The position numbers and the translations under genes are program-made. The notes below the pieces were generated by a model. That model was given only the letters and a program-made list of their open reading frames with translations. It did not search any database and was not told the DNA's origin. A stretch of DNA of 14,915 nt from an uncultured Acetatifactor sp. (GTDB taxonomy: Bacteria > Bacillota > Clostridia > Lachnospirales > Lachnospiraceae): contig CAKRRU010000064.1 of the NCBI GenBank assembly GCA_934394515.1, positions 1 through 14,915 on the forward strand. The letters are read 5' to 3'. Positions within the stretch are counted from its first letter, which is position 1. Each line of letters begins with the position of its first letter. Below are positions 2,586 through 4,822 of this stretch, one piece after another.

Positions 2586-3737
2586 CTAAACGTCTCTTCT
2601 CTTCGGAGGCTTCGGTCCCAGGAACTGATAATAATAAGTCTTCATCATTCCGTTATAGATCTTGCGGTTTTTGTCCGCTTTTCTGCCGATATCCTTCTCC
2701 GCCTGCTCGTAGGCAGTGATCAGATACATGCTCCAGGAATCCAGCTCCCTGAATCGTTCTCCGATGGTACGGTACAATTGCGGCATCTGGCTCTTATCCT
2801 GCAAACGCTCTCCGTAGGGAGGATTTGTAATGATAAAGCCATATTTTTTCGGATGATGGAGATCCTCCACACTGCGACGCTGAAAATGGATCAGCTTATC
2901 CACGCCTGCCATCCGCGCATTTTCCCTGGCGATCTTCACCATATCCTCATCGATATCATATCCCTGAATATCCGTCTCCACCGACAGATCGATCATCTCT
3001 TCCGCTTCATCACAGGCATCGTACCACACTTTTTTTCCTACGATATGCGGCCACTCCTCCGCCGTAAAGCTGCGGTTCCTGCCGGGTGCCATATTGGCTG
3101 CCATCATGGCTGCCTCGATGGGAAAAGTGCCGCTTCCGCAAAAAGGATCCACCAGGATCCTGCCGGCATTCCATGGGGTCAGCTCGATCAGTGCCGCTGC
3201 CAGATTCTCCGCAATGGGAGCCTTCGCCGTCAGTTTTCGGTAGCCACGTTTATGCAGGGATTCCCCGGTACTGTCCAGTCCCACAGTCACTTCGTCCTTC
3301 ATCAGGAATACGCGGACAGGAAAACCGGCACCATCCTCCGGGAACCAGCTGATGTCATACTGTGCCTTCAGACGCTCCACCATTGCCTTTTTCATAATAG
3401 ACTGAATATCCGAGGGACTGAATAATTTGGACTTTACGCTGGCTGCCTTAGCCACCCAGAATTTTCCGTCTTTTGGAATATACTCTTCCCATGGCAGCTC
3501 TTTCGTCCCCTGGAATAATTCTTCAAAAGTCTCCGCATGGAAGCTTCCTACCTTGATCAGGATTCTCTCTGCCGTGCGCAGGAAAATATTCGCCCTGCAC
3601 AAAGCCTCCTCATCCCCGAAAAAGGTAATACGGCCGTCCGCTACTTCCGTAATATCATATCCCAGATCTGTAATCTCTCTTTTTAATACCGATTCCATAC
3701 CGAAATGGCAGGGAGCAATCAATTCAAAACGTTTCAT
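2586..3737 (-). CDS. THUMP-domain class I SAM-dependent RNA methyltransferase (RlmL/YpsC-like)
   Basis: This 383-residue protein has a THUMP-type RNA-binding N-terminal half (about 45-155) and a Rossmann methyltransferase C-terminal half. The SAM-binding motif DPFCGSGTF is at about 197-205, an acidic GYDID follows, and the N6/N2-methylation motif NPPYGERL is at about 305-312. The family (COG0116) includes E. coli RlmL, which methylates guanine in 23S rRNA, and B. subtilis YpsC; the modified site here cannot be read from sequence. The frame extends to 3773, but ATG 3737 has GGAGG 5 nt upstream and starts with the family's MKRFELIAPCHFG. It is the first gene of the operon, with a strong promoter. 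Confidence 0.93.
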   Translation of the reverse strand: MKRFELIAPCHFGMESVLKREITDLGYDITEVADGRITFFGDEEALCRANIFLRTAERILIKVGSFHAETFEELFQGTKELPWEEYIPKDGKFWVAKAASVKSKLFSPSDIQSIMKKAMVERLKAQYDISWFPEDGAGFPVRVFLMKDEVTVGLDSTGESLHKRGYRKLTAKAPIAENLAAALIELTPWNAGRILVDPFCGSGTFPIEAAMMAANMAPGRNRSFTAEEWPHIVGKKVWYDACDEAEEMIDLSVETDIQGYDIDEDMVKIARENARMAGVDKLIHFQRRSVEDLHHPKKYGFIITNPPYGERLQDKSQMPQLYRTIGERFRELDSWSMYLITAYEQAEKDIGRKADKNRKIYNGMMKTYYYQFLGPKPPKRRDV

Positions 3738-3775
3738 TCGTTCCTCCGGATCTCTGTCGTTAATAGTCATCAAAT

Positions 3776-3846: not shown

Positions 3847-4005
3847 TTAGCAGTTCTTGTTCTGCTCTTTGTTATTGTTCCGGTTCTTATTCTGATTCTG
3901 GTTGTTCTGCTTATTCTGGGAGTTCTGACTGTTCTTGCTGTTCTGGCTCTCATCATAAGAGTTGTTATACTTGTTCTCGTTGTTCTGTTCATAATTGTTA
4001 GGCAT
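3847..4005 (-). CDS. 52-residue Asn/Gln-rich small protein, putative forespore product
   Basis: The peptide begins MPNNYEQNNENKYNN and ends KEQNKNC. It has 21 Asn and 8 Gln among 52 residues, plus Lys, Ser and Glu, and no hydrophobic stretch, so it is probably disordered. A near-perfect ribosome site AGGAGGT lies 7 nt before ATG 4005, and a hairpin terminator follows. The frame is open to 4068, but only ATG 4005 has a ribosome site. Upstream, GCATA-N17-CATACTA fits the B. subtilis sigma-G consensus (GHATR, CATNHTA), which would place expression in the forespore, as for small acid-soluble spore proteins; no SASP family motif is recognised. I do not assign a family. Coding status is well supported by its signals; the spore role is inference. 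Confidence 0.78.
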   Translation of the reverse strand: MPNNYEQNNENKYNNSYDESQNSKNSQNSQNKQNNQNQNKNRNNNKEQNKNC

Positions 4006-4049
4006 ATTTGTGACCTCCTGATAGGAAATATCTTTTTTAGTTACAGGAG

Positions 4050-4078
4050 TAGTATGTCTGTTTTGCACAAAAATATGC
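4050..4078 (-). promoter_or_regulatory. Putative sigma-G (forespore) promoter
   Basis: On the minus strand GCATA (4074-4078) is followed after 17 nt by CATACTA (4050-4056). Both match the published B. subtilis sigma-G boxes. The start would be near 4043, giving a leader of about 37 nt carrying AGGAGGT. A sigma-A reading (TTGAGC at -35) has no suitable -10 at 17 nt. Confidence 0.6.
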
Positions 4079-4113
4079 TCAATTTTTATGGTACTTTAGA
4101 ACTAAATTTCTTC

Positions 4114-4142
4114 TTGCATTTTTGTGTCATTAGTACTATAAT
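4114..4142 (+). promoter_or_regulatory. Plus-strand promoter of the candidate C-rich sRNA
   Basis: A perfect TATAAT (4137-4142) is preceded at 17 nt by TTGCAT (4114-4119, only TTG conserved). The predicted start is about 4149, 3 nt before the first hairpin of the candidate RNA. Confidence 0.55.
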
Positions 4143-4148
4143 CAGTAT

Positions 4149-4244
4149 TGTAAATAGAAACCCCTTCATGATTCTATTTGCACCCTTATGTATTATTTAT
4201 ACTCCCCTCATGAGAGCCACCAGCTTCCCCCTGGTGGCTCTTTA
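4149..4244 (+). ncRNA. Candidate C-rich small regulatory RNA
   Basis: About 96 nt with no ORF. From 5' to 3': hairpin 1, AAATAGAA/TTCTATTT (4152-4159 and 4172-4179) with a 12-nt loop containing CCCCTTCATG; a single-stranded linker with CACCCTTATG (4181-4190) and TCCCCTCATG (4203-4212); and a perfect 11-bp terminator-like stem (4213-4241) whose 7-nt loop is CTTCCCC. Four C-rich, unpaired anti-Shine-Dalgarno motifs in one short RNA is the design of Firmicute C-rich sRNAs such as RsaE and LhrC. The U-tract is short (TTTACGTT), which is the weak point. No gene on this strand explains the promoter or hairpins. The alternative is a structured region read from the minus strand. Confidence 0.5.
4213..4244 (+). 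terminator. Terminator-like hairpin closing the candidate sRNA
   Basis: AGAGCCACCAG and CTGGTGGCTCT form a perfect 11-bp stem around a CTTCCCC loop, followed by TTTACG on the plus strand. On the minus strand it lies about 22 bp past the DUF1700 stop but is followed by CATGAGGGG, which has no U-tract. It may still serve as a 3' barrier for that gene. Confidence 0.55.
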
Positions 4245-4263
4245 CGTTATCTCTGTATATTTT

Positions 4264-4764
4264 CTAATTAAGCCAGTCTCTAAATAGTTTCACCAAAAAC
4301 AATACTACCAGAATCGGAATCAGTACCGGTGCCAGAAAAGACAGCACTGAAAATACCGCACTGAAGATCAGCACTACTACCAGGATCCCAAGGATCAGCC
4401 ATACCCAGGCCGGAAGCTTTGCCAGTACATTGGCCGCTTTTCCCTGATGCGTACCGTGTTCCTCTCCGGTATCTTTGCTGTAAGTGTGATGCGTACTCTG
4501 TCCGCCGGCTTCCCTGTACTCTCCGTTGCCATAGACGGTGTTACGATATCCGGAACGGTTATCGCCACCGTTCGTCTGAATGATCGTACGGGCAATCAGT
4601 CTCGGATCTCCCAGGCTCTCCAGGACTTCCTCTTCCGTCCTGCCCTTGCGGATCTCCGTATTTATATAATCCTCATAATAATTCACATTATCCATGACCA
4701 GACTCGGAGAAACTCTTCCGTTCAATGCCATCCGCAGTCTGTCAATAAATTCCTGTTTGTTCAT
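4264..4764 (-). CDS. HAAS/DUF1700 family membrane protein
   Basis: This 166-residue protein has an N-terminal HAAS-type helical domain (about 1-60: MNKQEFIDRLRMAL, YYEDYI, GRTEEEVLESLGDPRLIA), a polar Gly/Asn/His-rich linker (about 65-112), and a hydrophobic C-terminal part with two closely spaced membrane segments (about 118-163). HAAS domains are found in Firmicute membrane and transcription-related proteins, often beside PadR regulators; no PadR gene is present here. ATG 4764 was chosen over an in-frame start at 4803 because a GGAGG lies upstream (12 nt, rather long) and the family begins at MNKQEF. It appears monocistronic with its own promoter. Molecular function unknown. Confidence 0.85.
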   Translation of the reverse strand: MNKQEFIDRLRMALNGRVSPSLVMDNVNYYEDYINTEIRKGRTEEEVLESLGDPRLIARTIIQTNGGDNRSGYRNTVYGNGEYREAGGQSTHHTYSKDTGEEHGTHQGKAANVLAKLPAWVWLILGILVVVLIFSAVFSVLSFLAPVLIPILVVLFLVKLFRDWLN

Positions 4765-4793
4765 GTAATCACGATTCCTCCGTTTACATGACC

Positions 4794-4822
4794 ATTTTAG
4801 CATGACATAAGTACTACGTAAA
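4794..4822 (-). promoter_or_regulatory. Promoter of the DUF1700 gene
   Basis: TTTACG (4817-4822) and TAAAAT (4794-4799) are 17 nt apart on the minus strand, with a start near 4787, about 22 nt before the ATG. Confidence 0.6.

Follow-up and report, generated by a model that had tools for sequence, protein, structure and literature searches.

On the plus strand of the window, i.e. the whole stretch of 14,915 nucleotides analyzed in this study, we identified a C-rich element of about 100 nt (4148..4247), which probably is the gene of a trans-acting, Hfq-independent antisense sRNA of the Lachnospiraceae with its own promoter and terminator. Judged by sequence comparison, it represents a previously undescribed RNA family within a known kind, namely the C-rich antisense sRNAs. 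A C-rich small RNA gene had been proposed here in a preliminary description, and this proposal was borne out, as the element recurs in relatives with covarying stems, a nearly invariant core, and promoter-like flanks. Because of this recurrence with covarying stems, it is taken to be more than a chance structure.

Position, promoter, and predicted fold

The element was matched by covariance model R1 with 92.4 bits, a score that has to be read with the fact that the window sequence is one of the 29 sequences used to build this model. Upstream, the plus strand shows the promoter-like sequence TTGCAT-17-TATAAT (4114..4142; -35 at 4114-4119, -10 at 4137-4142). It is followed by a 5' hairpin (4149..4182) with C-motif 1 (CCCC, 4161-4164) in its loop, the linker core ACCCTTATGTATTATTTATACTCCCCTCA (4182..4210), which carries C-motifs 2 and 3 and is the most conserved part in the sequence comparison, and a terminator-like hairpin (4212..4242) with 12 predicted pairs and the loop CUUCCCC (4224-4230), i.e. 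C-motif 4. Both hairpins are based on the predicted fold and on covariation. Sequence and fold agree in this with the order described before, a promoter with a 17-nt spacer, then a 5' hairpin, a linker, and a terminator-like stem. Folding of positions 4149-4250 resulted in -31.4 kcal/mol (z = -7.7), which was equalled by none of 200 shuffled sequences, and within the linker a weak hairpin of four pairs was predicted at 4190-4202. The C-runs of the window are located at 4161-4164, 4183-4185, 4204-4207, and 4227-4231. Their description as unpaired holds except for one end base in the first run, where 4161 and 4170 form a lone pair, and one in the fourth run, and of the previously given starts 4161 was exact, while 4181 and 4203 included one or two leading bases (runs from 4183 and 4204). 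The placement of the element opposite to the genes was confirmed, since the tRNAs and the large ORFs with family matches are all encoded on the minus strand.

Neither end of the putative transcription unit is strong by consensus. The -35 box matches TTGACA at only three of six bases, which is why the promoter was missed by a consensus scan, and the T-tail behind the 3' hairpin is short (CTTTACGTT), so that this hairpin was not listed in the terminator scan of the window. Across the family, a TTG in the -35 box together with a TA...T -10 box was found in 69 of 80 distinct sequences, the spacer was 17 in 68 of them, and a promoter score of at least 9 of 12 was reached by 63 of the 80 compared to 19.5% of shuffled flanks. 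Further upstream, GGTACTTTAGAACTAAATTT (4090..4109) was noticed by eye as a possible operator; it appears to be a diverged form of the partly palindromic motif GGACTTTRGTACYA, which lies near the -35 box, upstream of the promoter, in seven related loci (L005, L007, L012, L016, L017, L021, and L032) and is present in two copies each in genomes G317 and G024. As an operator of a wider regulon this motif was rejected, since a search with GGACTWTRGTACYA at one mismatch revealed 32 matches in nine genomes, below the reversed control; the form of the window, as it occurs in G001 and G002, has diverged too far for this pattern to detect it.

The element does not look coding, because the distances between the motifs are spread over all three frames and no frame was free of stops throughout the 80 sequences (stops in 45, 78, and 66 of them for the three frames), which does not fit a gene for a small protein.

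Conservation and covariation in relatives

The set of 80 sequences excludes copies from phages and prophages, partial second copies, and the second copy of G103, as well as weak model hits (L066-L071), a truncated hit (L167), several repeat loci of genomes already used, and two identical sequences. Loci L155-L159 and L094, in which the CUCCCC half is missing, were set aside. Covariation was computed on a MAFFT alignment that was not fitted to the structure. Changes on both sides were detected in 16 of 18 pairs, with 114 such cells compared to a mean of 42 in shuffled alignments, and the covariation score of 0.57 was reached by none of 500 shuffles and dropped to 0.19 or less when the partners were slid by one to three columns. 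In the 5' hairpin (helix 1), five of seven pairs had changed on both sides, with 93% of the cells still paired, while in the terminator-like hairpin this applied to all 11 pairs.

The positions of TTATTTATACTCCCC in the linker were 98-100% identical over the 80 sequences, and 53 of the 55 sequences found by BLAST or the model, rather than by the core word, possess it exactly. This invariance is in part a product of selection, since 25 of the 80 sequences were fetched with the exact core itself and the other 55 were also picked by similarity. With regard to the C-runs, a CCC was present in the predicted 5' loop of 54 sequences (none in 26) and in the predicted terminator loop of 68 (none in 12), and the C-runs were about 90% unpaired in the predicted folds. 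The two linker C-runs are spaced by 10 to 19, in 57 of 78 measured cases by 14. Four C-motifs, as described for the window, do exist there, but they are not the rule for the family, because only 46 of 80 sequences have at least four C-runs, compared to 77 with at least three. The CATG or TATG that had been pointed out next to each of three C-runs did not generalize: it accompanies all three only in the window and its relative L052 (2/80), and 73 of the 80 sequences have none of the three. Overall, the comparison proposed in the preliminary description, namely whether loops are conserved while stems covary in relatives, was carried out and gave a largely positive result.

Distribution across genomes

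The exact 15-mer TTATTTATACTCCCC was detected in 134 of 299 Lachnospiraceae genomes, compared to five for the reversed control, and was absent from the other 165; 130 of the 134 carry it in single copy. Searches with R1 (29 sequences) at E <= 0.01 revealed matches in at least 62 of 120 family genomes, three of them (G003, G023, and G081) with weak matches only, though G003 also has the exact core, and no match in 58. Within the class, at least eight of 291 genomes matched; the strong ones (G001, G024, and G323) were all in the family draw as well. Since a prefilter let only 32 (family) or 13 (class) candidates per genome be scored, these counts are lower bounds. A match of 38.9 bits in G492 may represent a distant relative. 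The exact 16-mer occurred in three of the 291 class genomes, but together with the architecture only in G323, so that G508 and G479, which displayed neither the architecture nor any model match, were rejected; this search is blind to variants such as that of G001. A DNA search against 397 family genomes gave some match at E <= 1 in 351, many of which may be due to chance, while the top matches span most of the element. The nearest loci were obtained via the neighboring HAAS protein, namely L001 (Lachnospiraceae bacterium GAM79) and L002, with elements 94% and 88% identical to that of the window, respectively; judged by these loci, the window appears to be chromosomal DNA of a member of the Lachnospiraceae. 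Based on the family and class counts, the RNA appears to be mainly a feature of the Lachnospiraceae, though far from universal within this family.

Neighboring genes

In the window, the element is flanked on one side by a convergent gene for a HAAS-domain protein (4264..4803, minus strand; PF22564) and on the other by a small Asn/Gln-rich ORF without Pfam family (3847..4068, minus strand), which is divergent from the sRNA, and a gene for an RlmL-like THUMP/UPF0020 RNA methyltransferase (2586..3773, minus strand; PF01170, PF22020, and PF02926). Using single-linkage BLASTP clusters for 55 loci including the window, members of the HAAS cluster were identified beside 24 and members of the methyltransferase cluster beside 32 loci; both numbers may be undercounts, since each locus covers just about 3 kb. 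In the remaining loci, neighbors are different or out of reach, so that the synteny is partial, and in L001 and L002 extra sequence separates the HAAS gene from the element. A relative of the Asn/Gln-rich ORF occupies the same place in L052, and similar ORFs were seen by eye in L162 and L080.

Copies in phages and prophages

Twenty viral contigs contained the exact 16-mer. Six of them showed an R1 match at E < 1e-8, and the other 14, without such a match, were dropped. Five phage or phage-like loci (L075, L077, L084, L087, and L093; L075 and L093 classified as phage-like by eye only) harbor the conserved core and, behind it, a hairpin whose stems are unrelated. In L084 and L087, the core is located behind a gene matching a family of late-regulator type and adjoins a predicted tRNA, that of L084 being of unknown type; L087 also encodes a DNA polymerase and a helicase. 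Both loci have in common a hairpin-like stretch, CCTCCTTCCGGCTTCCGGGTGTAAAAGCCCGGT, upstream of the predicted tRNA and the core. In L077, the core precedes a portal gene, and a promoter (TTGTAA-17-TAGTAT) and a hairpin of its own were recognized by eye. In locus L080, a HAAS gene adjoins the element on one side, and genes recognized by eye as those of a phage lie on the opposite side. Genome G166 possesses one copy in the usual neighborhood (L162) and three more full-length model matches in L160, which carries phage-type genes including an ERF recombinase, and L161; one of these extra copies adjoins an integrase gene, and the promoters and 5' hairpins of the extra copies were identified by visual inspection. 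Searches of INPHARED and PLSDB, the former evaluated for the best 40 of 94 phage records, resulted only in short matches with E values of 0.6 or more, which were taken as chance.

Duplication of the 3' half

In two genomes, the 3' half of the element is duplicated. The second copy is identical over 82 bases in G163 (L164 2762-2859 and L165 3014-3106) and over 70 bases in G030 (L166 1868-1978 and 3702-3818), where both copies form a direct repeat, and both identical blocks begin at TAACCCC. In G163, an integrase gene adjoins the full copy (L164), while the partial copy is located on a different contig, within reach of genes of repressor and HTH type; the two copies would presumably be joined by a single element. 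The G030 copies are 1840 bases apart and enclose a gene for an AAA ATPase and an ORF of 89 aa without Pfam match, and an integrase gene was not found between or near them within L166. These arrangements suggest integration into the 3' half, with a clear case in one genome and a possible one in a second. Genes for tRNAs and tmRNA are used as integration sites, and mobile elements of this kind are known to insert into functional RNA genes at their 3' part. As at those sites, an RNA gene here has its 3' half duplicated near an integrase gene; unlike them, the gene concerned would encode a C-rich RNA of regulatory type, and the arrangement is clear in one genome only.

Putative targets and protein partners

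RNAs of the RsaE/RoxS family bind ribosome sites and repress metabolic mRNAs. For the element described here, the four motifs were compared at three word lengths with 669 translation starts in 800 kb of the relative G001, using shuffled motifs as control. In 11 of 12 comparisons, complementarity to these starts was no better than for shuffled C-rich motifs. The exception was the terminator loop at 8-mers, with seven starts, a value as high being obtained by five of 200 shuffles; as one among twelve comparisons, this signal was not relied on. At the level of 6-mers, complements of three of the four motifs were commoner in starts than in gene interiors, a comparison that is biased because start codons were assigned by a crude rule favoring GGGG sites. 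The binding of ribosome sites claimed before is thus left without a general signal above shuffled motifs in G001, apart from the terminator loop at 8-mers, though pairing of the C-runs with such sites is plausible. The ribosome site of nrdD that had been named as complementary (TTAAGGGGGTACACAAGATG) is present in the window but, by eye, offers only about six contiguous pairs.

Hfq (PF17209) was detected in none of 120 Lachnospiraceae genomes, a sample outside the window's own genome, while the same profile matched five of 14 control genomes, including E. coli and B. subtilis. In this respect, the family differs from the hosts of Hfq-dependent sRNAs, which encode this protein. A protein of the Jag_N/KhpB type was matched in 50 of 60 family genomes.

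Proposed function and alternatives

In the reading that we favor, a sigma-A-type promoter belonging to the element would drive transcription of an RNA of about 100 nt, which would end at the element's terminator hairpin. The unpaired C-runs of this RNA in the 5' loop, the linker (two), and the terminator loop would base-pair with Shine-Dalgarno sequences rich in G, and, as with RsaE/RoxS and LhrC, this pairing would block translation or alter mRNA decay, presumably without Hfq. Since pairing with ribosome sites would not require the full length of the nearly invariant AU-rich stretch that separates C-motifs 2 and 3, this spacer may additionally serve to bind a protein or a dedicated target. 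Some phages and prophages carry the core together with a hairpin and would presumably exploit or mimic the regulator of the host, and the 3' half of the sRNA gene can serve a mobile element for integration.

It is also conceivable, though in our view rather unlikely, that the RNA acts mainly via a protein, with the core UUAUUUAUACUCCCC titrating or modulating an RNA-binding protein and the C-runs not serving as seeds against ribosome sites. This would fit a core that is more invariant than short antisense seeds require (with the above selection of sequences in mind), its retention in phage copies with changed stems, the complementarity to ribosome sites that mostly does not exceed that of shuffled motifs, and the KhpB/Jag_N-type protein as a possible partner. 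The C-runs outside the core, however, in the 5' loop of 54 and the terminator loop of 68 of the 80 sequences, resemble the multi-motif antisense kind, and no partner protein is known. Much less probable is that the element is no regulator at all but a conserved intergenic terminator or an attachment site of mobile elements with a chance promoter. The identical blocks of 82 and 70 bases, one beside an integrase gene, and the modest promoter and terminator of the window would agree with this, but the duplicated part includes neither the covarying 5' hairpin nor the promoter-like sequence, and the integration habit described above concerns functional RNA genes. Hardly to be expected, finally, is an action from the minus strand, with a G-rich signal in what would be the terminator or 3' region of the HAAS gene. 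In the same kind of fold test, the minus strand also folded better than shuffled sequences (z = -3.5), the hairpin follows the HAAS gene after about 20 bases, and all five sub-threshold Rfam matches were on this strand; the plus strand folds better still, its promoter-like sequences are found in 69 of 80 sequences, the element is kept in many loci with different neighbors, and in L001 and L002 it is separated from the HAAS gene by other sequence.

As for the antisense sRNA, its copies in phages and the absence of any detectable Hfq lend it more interest than the usual newly found sRNA would have. The Lachnospiraceae belong to the major commensals of the gut, and a conserved sRNA in a family without detectable Hfq would offer a handle on antisense regulation and on the replacement of Hfq, while phage-borne copies would turn it into a testable point of conflict between host and phage. 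A more far-reaching version, which we regard as speculative and on balance improbable, would assign it a central place as riboregulator in a family that gave no Hfq match, with a core that binds an RNA chaperone and with copies in phages and prophages, on unrelated stems, that take over or sequester the regulator during infection.

Comparison with known RNA families

A search of the window against all 4227 Rfam families resulted in tRNAs only above threshold. At E <= 5, the locus gave five sub-threshold matches, the highest to RefA9 (24.4 bits, cut-off 49) and none to LhrC, for which Rfam holds a model; at E <= 1, no family matched the element in 20 related loci. The RsaE model (RF01820) found nothing at the locus (E <= 5), nor did it match the element in any of the 20 related loci (E <= 1). 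Among 60 family genomes, it exceeded its cut-off in none and gave no match where R1 matched, while 15 showed weak matches elsewhere than at the R1 element; in control genomes, it matched B. subtilis and L. lactis, one of these two above its cut-off. A different C-rich hairpin was noticed in G055 (L215 1498-1596, minus strand), with 30 bits for the RsaE model and 25 bits for R1, and is perhaps another C-rich sRNA. No title on a trans-acting sRNA in Lachnospiraceae, or on the element itself, was among the literature matches listed. A transcription start site study of C. phytofermentans, the excerpted text of which gives a size threshold of 200 bp (PMC5171806), would for this reason probably have missed an RNA of about 100 nt.

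The kind of layout suggested before, that of RsaE and LhrC, was recovered, as the arrangement of C-runs in the window and the family fits the architectures described. According to excerpts of the respective reports, RoxS has four C-rich regions (CRR1-4), with one target not majorly affected by deletion of hfq (PMC4409812), RsaE has two C-rich motifs in an unpaired stretch between two stem-loops (PMC6435200), and LhrC presents CUCCC or UCCC in loop A, a single-stranded stretch, and the terminator loop and can bind lapB mRNA (PMC4132741); action on Shine-Dalgarno sites is described in these excerpts for RsaE/RoxS (PMC4409812, PMC6435200). LhrC binds such sites as well. As far as these excerpts go, RsaE/RoxS of Staphylococcus and Bacillus share with our element the order of a stem-loop, a C-rich linker, and a terminator stem-loop, but differ in the linker sequence and in matching RF01820. 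LhrC of Listeria likewise resembles it, with C-runs of the window at the 5' loop, the single-stranded stretch, and the terminator loop, but is present in five copies, whereas 130 of the 134 genomes with the core have one, and no Rfam family, LhrC included, reached its threshold at the element. Since the RsaE model does not recognize the element, we regard this as a likeness without membership in RsaE/RoxS or another Rfam family; by analogy, the element may work like RsaE/RoxS and LhrC.
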